A program made the translations under genes and the position numbers. From Candidatus Tectimicrobiota bacterium (GTDB taxonomy: Bacteria; JACPSX01), in the NCBI GenBank assembly GCA_016193065.1, contig JACPSX010000268.1:933-7475 (forward strand): DNA of 6,543 bases, written 5' to 3'. The notes beneath the pieces are model-generated. The model was not told the DNA's origin, ran no database searches, and was given only the letters and a program-made list of their open reading frames with translations. Of this stretch, positions 1 through 6,258 are shown in pieces (position 1 is the first letter of the stretch; the number at the start of each line of letters is the position of its first letter).

Positions 1-1
1 T

Positions 2-2113
2 CACGTGGAAACAGTGAGCGGATCGAGCAGCAAGCTCAAGTTCAATTACCTCAAGCCACGAATCACAGAGGTGCGTCCAGCGTCCGGGGAGCGAGGCCGA
101 GAAGTGGAGCTAGTCGGAGAGAATTTCGGAATAAAGGGGCAGGACTTTAGTGTTTTTTCGGTAGGGTTCGGTGAGTCATTACCTCAAGCCATTTCCTGGG
201 ACGATAGGCGCATAGTCGTCAAGGCTCCAATGGATTTCGGGACAGGCACCAATTTGAAGATCGTATTTGGGTCTCTCGGTTGCATTGTGGATCAATTCGG
301 CGGTCTGAGCAAAGCTGCAGAATTCCTTGTAGATCTTGCAATCCCAGGGTGCCCGGATCTTATTGAGAATATCTGGAAGAGGTATCGACTGAGAGTGAGG
401 CCTGGGTTTATGGAGCGGGAAGTGAAGGTCTCAGTCAAAACATCCGCAGGGACGAGCAATGAACGTAGCTACACCTATCAGGTGCGTGCCGAGATCCGGA
501 GCCGACCGAGTCAGCCGCAGATCGCGCAGGGCGGGCAACCGACTGCCCCTGGTGCAACTTCAGCCGGGCCACCAACAAATGTTCCACCGGCTGGCTCCAT
601 TTCCAGCGGACCCATGGGGATCGCGCCTTCTGGTCCAGCGCCTACGGCTTCTCGGGTCCCATCTCAAGCCCCGCCGAGCCAGACCCCACCAGGGCTACAG
701 GCACAACCCGCGCAACCTCAGTCTGGCCCTCCCGCGCCTGATCCTCAGCTCCTCGCCCAAGTGCAACAGGTGCGCACGGCGTGGCAGCAACTCAACGCCC
801 AGGTCAATCAGTTGCCGAACCTCCAACCGGCGGACCGCACCACCCTCAGCCAGGACCTCCAGCGGGGCAGCCAGGCCCTCGACGCGGCGGAGGCCGCGGC
901 CCAACGAGGCGATCGGGCCACCATGAACGTCCACCTTAACCAAACTCAGCAGGCGCTGGATGCTGCCCGCCAACGCCTGACCCAGATCGCCTCCCGTCCC
1001 ACTCCCACAACGCCGCCACCACCGAGCGCTGCTCACCCGCAGCCTGTCCTACCGCCTCAGCGCGTCGCACCGACCACGCCCCAGCCAATGCCCCAACCCC
1101 CGCTGATCCAGACCCAACCGGGGAAACCGGCTCAACCAATGCCGCCTCAAATACCCACCCCCACCGCCGATCCGCAGCTCGTGGCCCAGGTGCAACAAGT
1201 CCGTAATGCGTGGCAGCAGCTCAATGCGCAGGTAAGTCAGACGCCGAACCTGCAGCCCGAGGATCGAGCCGCGCTAGCCCAAGACATGCAGCGGGGCAGC
1301 CAGGCCCTCGACGCCGCGGAGGCTGCTGCCAAACATGGTGACCGAGGGACCACGCAAAAGCAGCTAGGCCAGGTGCAGCAGGCCCTGGCCTCCGCCAGCC
1401 AGCGCCTCAGCGAGATCGCGCGGCGCCCCGCCCCTGCGCCTCAGCAACCACCCCGGGCTGGCCCCGCGAGCCCGCCACCGGCACCCGCGCCATCGCCGAC
1501 GCCCGATCCCCAGCTCTTTGCCCAAGTGCAGCAGCTCCGCACGGCGTGGCAGCAGATCAACACGCAGGTCACTCAGATGCCGAACCTCCAGCCCCAGGAT
1601 CGTGCCTCCCTGATCCAAGACCTCCAGCGGGGCAGCCAAGCCATTGACGGGGCGGAGGCCGCGGCCCGACGGGGCGATCGGGCCACCGTGCAGGCGCAGC
1701 TCGCGCATGCACAACAGGTCTTAGGAGCAGTCAGCCAGCGCCTCAGCCAGATCGTCCAGCGCGCCGCCGCACCACAGCAGACTCCCCGCGCCAGTCCACC
1801 GAGCGCGCCTCCGCCTCAAGCAACGCTCTCACCGCCTGGGCCCTTTTCCCTCAGCGCCACAACCCGCTGCTCGGCCGCTCAGCCGGAGGTGGTCCTTTCG
1901 TGGAATGCCTCGCCCGGCGCTAAGGCCTACGCACTTCTTCGTAATGGCCAGCTTTACCGTGACTTCACCTATGTAGGAACCAGCTTGGCCTTTGTCAACC
2001 AGGGGGTGGTGGGCGGCACCCGGTACACCTACGTCGTACGCGCGAAAAACGACGCCGGGCAAACCCGGGACTCAAATCCTGTGACGGCAGCCCCACCTAC
2101 CTGCCGGAGGTAG
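2..2113 (+). CDS. TIG / triple helical repeat / FN3-like surface or periplasmic protein (5' partial)
   Basis: The frame is open to the window edge. The first possible start is GTG at 5, but it has no ribosome binding site in view and no signal peptide follows, so the true start is probably upstream. Residues are numbered from that GTG. About 18-160 resembles an IPT/TIG beta-sandwich (PRITEVRPASGERG, VELVGENFG, closing with VKTSAGTSN and YTYQV). About 165-245 is a Pro/Gln/Ser-rich linker. Three 84-residue repeats follow at 246-329, 389-472 and 501-584, each starting DPQL, containing AWQQ and PNLQP, and predicted helical; they are separated by Pro-rich linkers. About 609-700 resembles fibronectin III (VVLSWNASPGAKAYALLRNG, GTRYTYVVRAKNDAG), with C622 and C700 placed to form a disulfide. 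This architecture suggests an exported binding or scaffold protein; no enzymatic motif is visible. The specific function is unknown. Confidence 0.85.
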   Translation, partial: HVETVSGSSSKLKFNYLKPRITEVRPASGERGREVELVGENFGIKGQDFSVFSVGFGESLPQAISWDDRRIVVKAPMDFGTGTNLKIVFGSLGCIVDQFGGLSKAAEFLVDLAIPGCPDLIENIWKRYRLRVRPGFMEREVKVSVKTSAGTSNERSYTYQVRAEIRSRPSQPQIAQGGQPTAPGATSAGPPTNVPPAGSISSGPMGIAPSGPAPTASRVPSQAPPSQTPPGLQAQPAQPQSGPPAPDPQLLAQVQQVRTAWQQLNAQVNQLPNLQPADRTTLSQDLQRGSQALDAAEAAAQRGDRATMNVHLNQTQQALDAARQRLTQIASRPTPTTPPPPSAAHPQPVLPPQRVAPTTPQPMPQPPLIQTQPGKPAQPMPPQIPTPTADPQLVAQVQQVRNAWQQLNAQVSQTPNLQPEDRAALAQDMQRGSQALDAAEAAAKHGDRGTTQKQLGQVQQALASASQRLSEIARRPAPAPQQPPRAGPASPPPAPAPSPTPDPQLFAQVQQLRTAWQQINTQVTQMPNLQPQDRASLIQDLQRGSQAIDGAEAAARRGDRATVQAQLAHAQQVLGAVSQRLSQIVQRAAAPQQTPRASPPSAPPPQATLSPPGPFSLSATTRCSAAQPEVVLSWNASPGAKAYALLRNGQLYRDFTYVGTSLAFVNQGVVGGTRYTYVVRAKNDAGQTRDSNPVTAAPPTCRR
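740..991 (+). repeat. 84-residue helical repeat, copy 1
   Basis: This encodes residues 246-329 of the large protein, from DPQLLAQVQQVRTAWQQL to the LTQIA end. It is rich in Gln and Ala with heptad-like hydrophobics and contains PNLQPADR, QRGSQALDAAEAAA and RGDRA. It aligns with copies 2 and 3 over exactly 84 residues without gaps. Two or three amphipathic helices are the likely fold. Confidence 0.85.
1169..1420 (+). repeat. 84-residue helical repeat, copy 2
   Basis: This encodes residues 389-472, from DPQLVAQVQQVRNAWQQL to LSEIA. It has the same length and landmarks as copy 1 (PNLQPEDR, QRGSQALDAAEAAA, HGDRG). It is separated from copy 1 by about 59 residues of Pro/Gln/Thr-rich linker, the longest linker between repeats. 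Confidence 0.85.
1505..1756 (+). repeat. 84-residue helical repeat, copy 3
   Basis: This encodes residues 501-584, from DPQLFAQVQQLRTAWQQI to LSQIV. It keeps PNLQPQDR, QRGSQAIDGAEAAA and RGDRATVQ, and is 28 residues of Pro/Ala linker away from copy 2. Stretches such as the segment encoding QRGSQA are nearly identical in DNA among the copies, which indicates duplication within the gene. Confidence 0.85.
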
Positions 2114-2223: not shown

Positions 2224-3138
2224 GTGCGTTGGAGGTATGAACTGGGAGACATTCCTGCGGATGGTCGGAACGTTGAAGCACCCATCGAAGCCCAGGCACG
2301 CGGGTTCCTATTGCCTCGGCGGACCCTGCTGAAGGTTGGAGTGGGTCTGGTCGTCTGGCCCGCTGCGCAATTCCTGCAGGCATGTGCGACGACCGGAGGC
2401 ACAAGCACAAGCCGATCGAGGCTTCGCCTCATCTCTGACGAGGAGGAAGCGAAAATTGGAGTGGCAGTATTTCAGCAGCTGCAGGAGAAAGAACTGAAGC
2501 GTGGGCGCCTCATGACCGAGCCGGATGGTCCGGCCGCTCACGCCTGGGTCAAGCGCGTGTCGGATCGGGTGATCTGGGCCTCGGGCTTGGGCGATAAATA
2601 TCGCTGGGAGTACATACTCATCAACGCCCCCGGGACGGCGAACGCCATCGCCTTCCCGGGTGGGCGTATCATCGTATTCACCGGGATCCTACCAGTGGCA
2701 CGCGATGACGCGGGCCTGGCCACGATTATTGGGCACGTGGTGGGGCACGTGATGGGTCACCACATGGCCGAACGCATCTCCAAGGAATTCGTGATGGGAT
2801 TCGCTGAGGAGATTGCGCGCGAGCAAGGTGCAAGCGACTCGACCATAGCGACCATGCGGCTGGTAAATAGGAGCATTCTCTCGCAGTACAGCCGGATCCA
2901 CGAGACCGAGGCCGACCTTATTGGTCTGTTACTGATGTCAAAGGCAGGATACGACCCACGGGAGTCTGTCAAGCTGTGGCAGAGGATGAATGACGCCGCA
3001 GGGGAGTTCAGCCGGGGGCATGAATTCCTCCACACACATCCTGGTTCGGGAACGCAAATCGCGGACCTCCAGGCCTGGATGCAGCAGGCTTTGCAATACT
3101 ACGAGAATCCGAGCCTAGCCTTGCCGGTCCTGAAGTAG
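2224..3138 (+). CDS. M48-family peptidase homologue, Tat lipoprotein, catalytic Glu replaced
   Basis: The 304-residue product starts at GTG 2224, chosen because GGAGG (2212-2216) lies 7 nt upstream. Residues 31-37 (PRRTLLK) match the twin-arginine motif. A hydrophobic stretch follows and then a lipobox LQAC with C54, so an exported lipoprotein of about 250 mature residues is likely. The M48 landmarks are NAIAFPGGRIIVFTGIL (140-155), the zinc site IIGHVVGHVMGHH (168-180), ETEAD with the expected third zinc ligand E227 and D231, AGYDP (241-245) and THP (271-273). The active-site motif is H171-V-V-G-H175. In M48 enzymes such as BepA and HtpX, position 172 is the catalytic glutamate, so the zinc ligands are kept but the general base is missing. 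A pseudo-protease, or a one-base sequencing error (GAG to GTG at 2737-2739), would each explain this. Active family members act in envelope protein quality control. Confidence 0.9.
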   Translation: MRWRYELGDIPADGRNVEAPIEAQARGFLLPRRTLLKVGVGLVVWPAAQFLQACATTGGTSTSRSRLRLISDEEEAKIGVAVFQQLQEKELKRGRLMTEPDGPAAHAWVKRVSDRVIWASGLGDKYRWEYILINAPGTANAIAFPGGRIIVFTGILPVARDDAGLATIIGHVVGHVMGHHMAERISKEFVMGFAEEIAREQGASDSTIATMRLVNRSILSQYSRIHETEADLIGLLLMSKAGYDPRESVKLWQRMNDAAGEFSRGHEFLHTHPGSGTQIADLQAWMQQALQYYENPSLALPVLK

Positions 3139-3499: not shown

Positions 3500-3832
3500 A
3501 TGAAGCATTGTGTAATTTTAACTTCACTACTTCTGATCTTGGCTGGGTGCGCTGCGACAACCGGCAGACGATTTGACTCATCACTTGTAGACAATATTCA
3601 GAAAGAGAGAACGACAAAGCAAGAAATCCTCAAGTGGTTTGGAGAGCCTCTTTCGGCTTCCGTCGATTCTTCAGGCTCGGAGGTCTGGCGATACTCCTAC
3701 CAAGAAATCCCTGCCTCTACAATGTTTCTCGGCGTGCTCGGTGCGGAGGGCAAACAGGAGACGTTGATCATCAAGTATTCGCGTGATGTCGTCAAGGAGT
3801 TTTCACTCAGCAAAGGTGGGTTTCTACATTAA
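3500..3832 (+). CDS. Small lipoprotein with BamE/SmpA-like domain
   Basis: The 110-residue product starts at ATG 3500, preceded 7 nt upstream by AGAGGGG. An in-frame start at 3440 would put 20 charged residues before the signal peptide and is rejected. Residues 1-17 (MKHCVILTSLLLILAGC) are a classic lipoprotein signal, with lipobox LAGC and C17 as lipidation site. The mature part contains RTTKQEILKWFGEPLSAS (about 37-54) followed by EVWRYSY. This is the pattern of the SmpA/OmlA (BamE) fold: a TT-x-x-E/V helix, an (F/L)G-x-P turn, then a W/Y-rich strand. The glycine usually found just before TT is replaced here (ER-TT). BamE is an outer-membrane lipoprotein of the BAM complex, but many small lipoproteins of other roles share the fold, so BAM function is not claimed. 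Position 18 is Ala, not Asp, so outer-membrane targeting is expected. Confidence 0.8.
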   Translation: MKHCVILTSLLLILAGCAATTGRRFDSSLVDNIQKERTTKQEILKWFGEPLSASVDSSGSEVWRYSYQEIPASTMFLGVLGAEGKQETLIIKYSRDVVKEFSLSKGGFLH

Positions 3833-4834: not shown

Positions 4835-4850
4835 CCGGGCGTCAGCCCGG
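4835..4850 (+). repeat. Left-end subterminal hairpin of IS200-type remnant
   Basis: CCGGGC (4835-4840), loop GTCA, GCCCGG (4845-4850) form a perfect 6-bp stem. Its shape and loop resemble the hairpin downstream of the transposase fragment, which supports assignment as the left end. Confidence 0.5.
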
Positions 4851-4863
4851 GGTTGAAAGCCTC

Positions 4864-4893
4864 CCCAGCCGCAGGCTGGGCCGGCGCAGCCGG
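4864..4893 (+). repeat. Two back-to-back GCA-loop hairpins
   Basis: CCCAGCC-GCA-GGCTGGG (4864-4880) is directly followed by CCGGC-GCA-GCCGG (4881-4893). The stems are 7 and 5 bp, both with the trinucleotide loop GCA. They sit at the junction where the missing 5' half of the transposase gene should be. Confidence 0.55.
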
Positions 4894-4905
4894 GCCGGAT
4901 TTCTT

Positions 4906-5139
4906 CCGCCCAAGTACGCCGTCTCCACGATTGTCGGGAAGATCAAGGCCAACACGAGCCGCGAGATCCGCCAGCGCTTCCCCGGGATCAAGAAGGGGTA
5001 CTGGCGCAACGAATTCTGGTCCGTCGGCTTCTTCTCGTCCACCGTCGGCATCGATGAGGCCGTGATCAAGCGCTACGTCGAATTTCAGGAGAAGGTCGAC
5101 AAGGGCCAACTGAGGCTCCAGTTGGATTTCGGGTTCTGA
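4906..5139 (+). pseudogene. tnpA: IS200-family Y1 transposase (TnpA), C-terminal fragment
   Basis: Seventy-seven residues end at TGA 5137-5139. They start with PPKYAVSTIVGKIK, the segment that in IS200 TnpA directly follows the HUH (His-x-His) strand. Next come REIRQRFPG, NEFWSVGFFSSTVG (compare the family's FWxRGYxxxTVG) and the helix VIKRYVEFQEK. Y57 of the fragment (codon 5074-5076), with Q four residues later, matches the catalytic tyrosine position. The frame stays open back to 4792 but has no ATG, GTG or TTG there, and the residues upstream of PPKYAVS do not resemble the family. Full TnpA is about 130-150 residues, so roughly half is lost and the protein cannot be an active transposase. 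Confidence 0.85.
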
Positions 5140-5148
5140 TCCAAAGTG

Positions 5149-5168
5149 CCACGGGCGTAAGCCCGTGG
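5149..5168 (+). repeat. Right-end hairpin of IS200-type remnant
   Basis: CCACGGGC (5149-5156), loop GTAA, GCCCGTGG (5161-5168) form a perfect 8-bp stem starting 9 nt after the transposase stop. This is the expected place and shape for the right-end recognition hairpin of an IS200/IS605 element. It could also act as a terminator stem, but no T-tract follows. Confidence 0.65.
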
Positions 5169-5679: not shown

Positions 5680-6258
5680 ATGGCTGTTTCGCACACGCAC
5701 CTGCGCCAGTGGACCCGGGAGGAGTACCTGAAGATGGCCGAGGCGGGCGTCTTCGCGCCCGGGGAGCGGGTGGAACTCATCGAGGGGCAAATCACCACCA
5801 AGACGAAACCGAGCGCGTCGGAGGCTACATCCACCACCCTTTTGGCGGAGGAGCTGCGGCGGGCTTTCGGAGGGGGATACGTGATCCGGGTTCAAGGTCC
5901 GTTAGCTCTTGGGCCACTTTCAGAGCCTGAACCGGATGTGGCCGTTGTTCGGGGATCGCCCCGGGATTATCGGGACGCGCATCCAACAACGGCAGTCCTC
6001 GTAGTCGAGGTCTCGGACACGACGCTCGTGCTCGATCGGCAGCAGAAGGCCGGCCTGTACGCCAGGGCAGGCATCCCGGAATACTGGATCCTCAACTTGC
6101 TTGAACGGGTCCTCGAAGTCTACCGAGATCCTGCGCCACTCCCGGATCACCCGCTGGCTTACGGCTACCGTTCCTCAGAGCGTCTGGATGCGTCAGCCTC
6201 GGTCGTGCCCCTCGCCGCGTCGGCCACCCCGATTGCAGTCGCCGACCTCTTACCGTAG
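5680..6258 (+). CDS. Uma2-family (DUF820) PD-(D/E)XK nuclease-like protein
   Basis: The 192-residue product starts at ATG 5680, with GGGGAGG (5668-5674) 5 nt upstream. The N-terminus WTREEYLKMAEAGVF and GERVELIEGQI are typical of the family. The restriction-endonuclease-like core follows: SEPEPDVAVV with D86, AVLVVEVSD with E110, and K123 in RQQKAGLYARAGIPEYWI, giving the D-E-x(n)-K active-site set. The C-terminal VLEVYRDP strand is also conserved. The length is normal for Uma2. Where most relatives have a conserved His after the first strand (as in SPHAT), this protein has SEAT, with E48. Uma2 proteins are abundant in cyanobacteria and other environmental bacteria; they are presumed DNA nucleases, but their biological role is not established. 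It appears to be a single-gene unit with its own promoter. Confidence 0.9.
   Translation: MAVSHTHLRQWTREEYLKMAEAGVFAPGERVELIEGQITTKTKPSASEATSTTLLAEELRRAFGGGYVIRVQGPLALGPLSEPEPDVAVVRGSPRDYRDAHPTTAVLVVEVSDTTLVLDRQQKAGLYARAGIPEYWILNLLERVLEVYRDPAPLPDHPLAYGYRSSERLDASASVVPLAASATPIAVADLLP

Follow-up and report, generated by a model that had tools for sequence, protein, structure and literature searches.

The window, by which we mean the whole 6,543-nucleotide stretch of DNA analysed here, carries on its forward strand a gene for an M48-domain putative lipoprotein with a Tat-like export signal (positions 2224..3138; 304 amino acids, GTG start). Homology places the protein in family M48, with a match to Pfam PF01435 of 105.5 bits (curated cut-off 20.3) that spans positions 2-185 of 186. 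Read by eye, the putative signal runs from PRRTLLK (amino acids 31-37) to the lipobox LQAC (2314..2385, forward strand), whose Cys54 codon occupies 2383-2385 on the same strand, and both elements are conserved among the six closest orthologues, where the paired arginines read SRR-x-(L/I)L and the lipobox LQAC/VQAC. These orthologues share the signal and align from approximately the same start residue, which is Met in two of them, and thereby support both the start at GTG and the frame, which contains no stop or frameshift.

Directly upstream lies a second M48 protein, with HEISH and HPSPDER intact (G000:C217:3-930), which seems to extend past an NN (C217:931-932) into a proline-rich protein with a TIG domain (window 1-2113). 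As the reading frame differs on either side of the NN, the length of this gap is probably wrong. Within the TIG-domain protein, 702 amino acids long, window 740-1780 holds a helical segment in three near-copies (DPQLxAQVQQ...WQQ...NLQPxDR...QRGSQA), with proline-rich linkers between them. Downstream are a small BamE-like lipoprotein (window 3500-3832) that scores 21.2 bits, just under the Pfam cut-off of 23.2; GC-rich hairpin-like repeats, CGGGCGTCAGCCCGGGG and CGGGCGTAAGCCCGTGG, 316 bases apart (window 4836-5168), flanking a short reading frame that we take to resemble the end of an IS200-type transposase; and a gene for a putative Uma2-family endonuclease (window 5680-6258, 92.5 bits). In the loci of the six closest orthologues, which all belong to one family (f99), only the M48 gene itself finds a match; the arrangement of an upstream M48 gene and a downstream BamE-like gene is not conserved there, and the neighbourhood indicates no partner gene.

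The initial annotation had reported HVVGH in an M48 protein, and this was borne out at amino acids 171-175 (2734..2748, forward strand), where the zinc-binding His pair is kept and the catalytic Glu172 is replaced by Val (GTG, 2737-2739). Glu occupies position 172 in all of a first aligned set of homologues (113/113) and in all of a closer set (59/59), so that Val172 falls far outside the variation of the family. The columns of H171, H175, E227 and D231 are invariant in the same 113 homologues and all four residues are kept in the window protein, as had likewise been stated; E227 and D231 stand in an intact ETEAD segment (2902..2916, forward strand; 113/113 relatives). The protein thus has the HxxxH pair and the downstream Glu that are the predicted zinc ligands of M48 proteins (H171, H175 and E227), but lacks the Glu of HExxH that marks the active enzymes.

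The claim that all other M48 landmarks are intact was incorrect. The HPx4R motif is found throughout M48, and in BepA of Escherichia coli its His246 is a zinc-binding switch and its Arg252 lies within the active site (PMC7950410). In the window protein this plug motif reads H272-P-G-S-G-T-Q278: the His and Pro are intact (3037..3042, forward strand; counterpart of BepA H246-P247, with His in 27/27 of the closest set) and the Arg, present in 59/59 close relatives, has become Gln (R278Q, CAA, 3055..3057, forward strand). Among 60 sequences the window protein alone departs from Glu at 172 and from Arg at 278, and the second loss strengthens the reading as a pseudo-protease. Other conserved positions, all on the forward strand, have been substituted as well: G212R (2857..2859; Gly in 59/59 close relatives), L220S-P221Q directly before the helix that bears the third zinc ligand (2881..2886; Leu in 58/59, Pro in 57/59), and, two residues ahead of the His switch, S270H (3031..3033; Ser in 58/59), which a TCN codon can reach only through two or more base changes. 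Leave-one-out counts give the window protein 15 changes across 60 conserved columns (median 2, next-highest 11) and 8 across 38 near-invariant columns (median 0, next-highest 6). The share of changes near the active site (10/27, versus 5/33 elsewhere) is suggestive but not significant (p 0.07). Only one of the 18 sites invariant among orthologues in segment 236-263 has changed, and the edge strand N140-A-I-A-F-P-G-G147 (2641..2664, forward strand), the counterpart of BepA N105-A106-F107, keeps the family-invariant N140 and A141.

An AlphaFold model built with 22 related sequences (mean pLDDT 79.5) was confident over the zinc helix (pLDDT 98 for residues 161-170, 95 for 171-180) and fell below 50 in the plug (265-270); the zinc geometry is accordingly read from the sequence. 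The best Foldseek matches of this model were BepA and PDB 3c37. BepA (YfgC; PDB 6ait, 6sar) shares the M48 fold and the zinc ligands with the window protein, its H246 switch corresponds to H272 and its edge-strand N-A (105-106) to residues 140-141. It has Glu137 and Arg252, however, where the window protein has Val172 and Gln278, and it carries a TPR domain, which the window protein, a putative lipoprotein by its Tat-like signal, lacks; against the NCBIfam BepA model the window protein scores 78 bits, far below the cut-off of 570. LoiP (YggG), an E. coli M48 lipoprotein, resembles the window protein in layout, with a single M48 domain and a lipoprotein plan, but keeps both HExxH and HPx4R (PMC7950410), and against its NCBIfam model too the window protein scores below the cut-off (36.6 bits, cut-off 365). 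The closest solved relative by sequence is the M48 peptidase of Geobacter sulfurreducens (PDB 3c37, 6.5e-20), in which HEINH and HPLTSER are intact while the window protein has neither motif intact. Pseudoenzymes that have kept a metallopeptidase fold and lost catalytic residues are known, including FtsHi and Ecm14 (PMC11266112); they belong to peptidase families other than M48, and a term search of that review found no mention of M48. A limited literature search returned no description of a bacterial M48 pseudopeptidase, which is weak evidence of absence.

The closest orthologues come from a different phylum, that of G084, in which we found the six f99 genomes (G098, G099, G100, G101, G103 and G104; 57-61% identity when aligned, 58-63% as search hits), along with a further relative at 41-48% identity. 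HEVGH or HELGH together with HPx4R is intact in all seven, and the six f99 proteins, all with HEVGH, match the window protein in their Tat-like signal and lipobox. The tree places the window protein with the f99 six (support 100/99), on a branch of 0.51 as compared with end branches of 0.007-0.23 for the six. This common ancestry with Tat-lipoproteins that have intact motifs indicates that the loss is private to the window lineage. The initial annotation had envisaged a clade of pseudo-enzymes sharing the change, but none was found in 98 and then 386 broadly sampled genomes, in the window genome's own phylum, of which it is the sole representative in the comparison, or in two further phyla: the six close orthologues and every distant relative inspected have HExxH. 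A relative with another residue in place of this Glu was also sought in genome contigs, viral contigs and plasmids, and none was seen among the matches inspected outside plasmids. Among the genomes inspected, the catalytic loss is thus known from one genome and is shared by no second organism. In a sample of about one genome per family the best identity outside the window gene was 41%, and in the wider sample of 386 genomes nothing beyond the window genome itself matched with an E value below 1e-50.

The same genome encodes a paralogue on contig C165 that is 41% identical to the window protein, has HEVAH intact and shows none of the changes at the conserved columns (0 of 60); in the tree it groups with the G084 relatives and not with the f99 six. 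It adjoins genes that, from their sequences, we take to be Tol/Pal-like, consistent with an outer membrane. In the f99 genomes one and the same gene (loci L163-L168) is the best match to both single-domain M48 paralogues of the window genome (C165: L122), which implies that this genome has two such genes and f99 seemingly one. An f99-like donor may have supplied the window gene through lateral transfer. Contamination from f99 was rejected, as the contig, with a GC content of 0.596, matches other contigs from the window genome (0.587-0.608) but not the f99 loci (0.648-0.682).

Divergence at third positions was similar whether or not pairs included the window protein (0.44 vs 0.40-0.44), and at second positions it was higher for window-protein pairs (0.19 vs 0.12). 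Relative-rate tests gave more changes on the window branch in 24 of 28 comparisons (p<0.05; for example 38 vs 14), although these are non-independent. Using a codon model custom-written for this analysis, we estimated an omega of 0.115 for the window branch (95% upper range near 0.22), an average over a long, saturated branch that would hide a very late loss. An omega of 1 was rejected for this branch (LRT 41.3, p 1.3e-10) and the difference from the remainder of the tree (0.072) was not significant (p 0.19), in tests whose synonymous sites are near saturation and whose taxa vary in base composition. A model with a neutral tail fitted best with a tail of zero and left room for one of no more than about 6% of the branch.

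Our best reading of these data is that the window protein arose independently as an M48 pseudopeptidase and remains under constraint, and we consider it reasonably likely that the gene encodes a catalytically dead metallopeptidase lipoprotein that its lineage has kept; the inactivity itself we infer strongly. The initial proposal of a pseudo-protease is therefore supported by the loss of R278, the intact frame and the purifying selection, while its picture of otherwise unchanged landmarks and of a clade sharing the loss did not hold: the close orthologues are intact and the organism's own phylum is represented by one genome. Decay ranks next and sequencing error is unlikely.

Early decay of a redundant copy, in which the active paralogue is kept while the Tat-lipoprotein copy becomes a pseudogene, is rather unlikely but is the alternative that survives best. 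The excess of changes on the window branch fits such a process, as does the intact, fully conserved paralogue on C165. It is difficult, however, to reconcile with a gene free of stops and frameshifts, with a neutral tail estimated at zero, or with the retention of the zinc ligands, the switch, the signal and all but one of the invariant sites of segment 236-263.

That the enzyme is active and base 2738 was misread or misassembled is improbable. Codon 172 differs from that of the orthologues by one transversion (GAG to GTG), the codon sits in a 12-base tandem near-repeat (GGGCACGTGGTG/GGGCACGTGATG), and the assembly is a fragmented draft of 294 contigs with the NN noted above. The orthologue L127 reads GGGCACGAGGTGGGGCACGTGATG at the near-repeat, so that with GTG the first copy has come to look like the second, which may be how the substitution arose. 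Against an error, assembly k-mers are usually longer than a 12-base repeat. Moreover, R278Q, S270H, L220S and G212R affect further near-invariant positions 120-320 bases away, and two of these four need several base changes, including R278Q (CGG/CGC in orthologues to CAA). The initial annotation had named HEVGH in all close orthologues as refuting a pseudo-protease; literally this is what the orthologues have, yet R278Q and the multi-step codon changes argue for lineage-specific loss rather than error.

We know of no M48 enzyme that works without the Glu of HExxH. The least probable alternative is a rewired, active metallopeptidase using another residue as base, for instance His270, newly acquired next to the switch, since although S270H is a multi-step change adjoining the zinc plug, R278 is also missing, BepA E137Q has no proteolytic activity (PMC7950410) and the plug lacks a reliable AlphaFold model.

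If the window protein is a constrained pseudopeptidase, as we favour, it would be exported folded by Tat and would bind zinc through H171, H175, E227 and probably H272. It may then stay in a closed state in which, without the general base E172, the attacking water would not be polarised. BepA offers an analogy, because it has chaperone-like activity alongside proteolysis and its edge strand N105-A106-F107 binds the substrate LptD (PMC8423444). Mutation of the same Glu (E137Q) abolishes proteolysis while contact with LptD persists, and leaves a protein with weakened chaperone-like activity that is dominant negative (PMC7950410, PMC8423444). This behaviour, together with the kept N140-A141, suggests by analogy that the window protein is probably a zinc-bound, substrate-binding lipoprotein with a chaperone-like or competing role. 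Its edge strand could bind misfolded or maturing envelope proteins, as a holdase would, or it could compete for substrates with the active M48 enzymes of the genome. That the protein has, under selection, given up proteolysis to serve envelope protein assembly as a dedicated, zinc-locked chaperone or as a regulator competing for substrates is a more tentative proposal.

BepA exemplifies an M48 protein that both assists and destroys its outer-membrane clients, with the His switch choosing between these outcomes. A natural homologue that lacks the cutting residues but retains both switch and binding strand would allow these two roles to be separated without the need for an engineered mutant.
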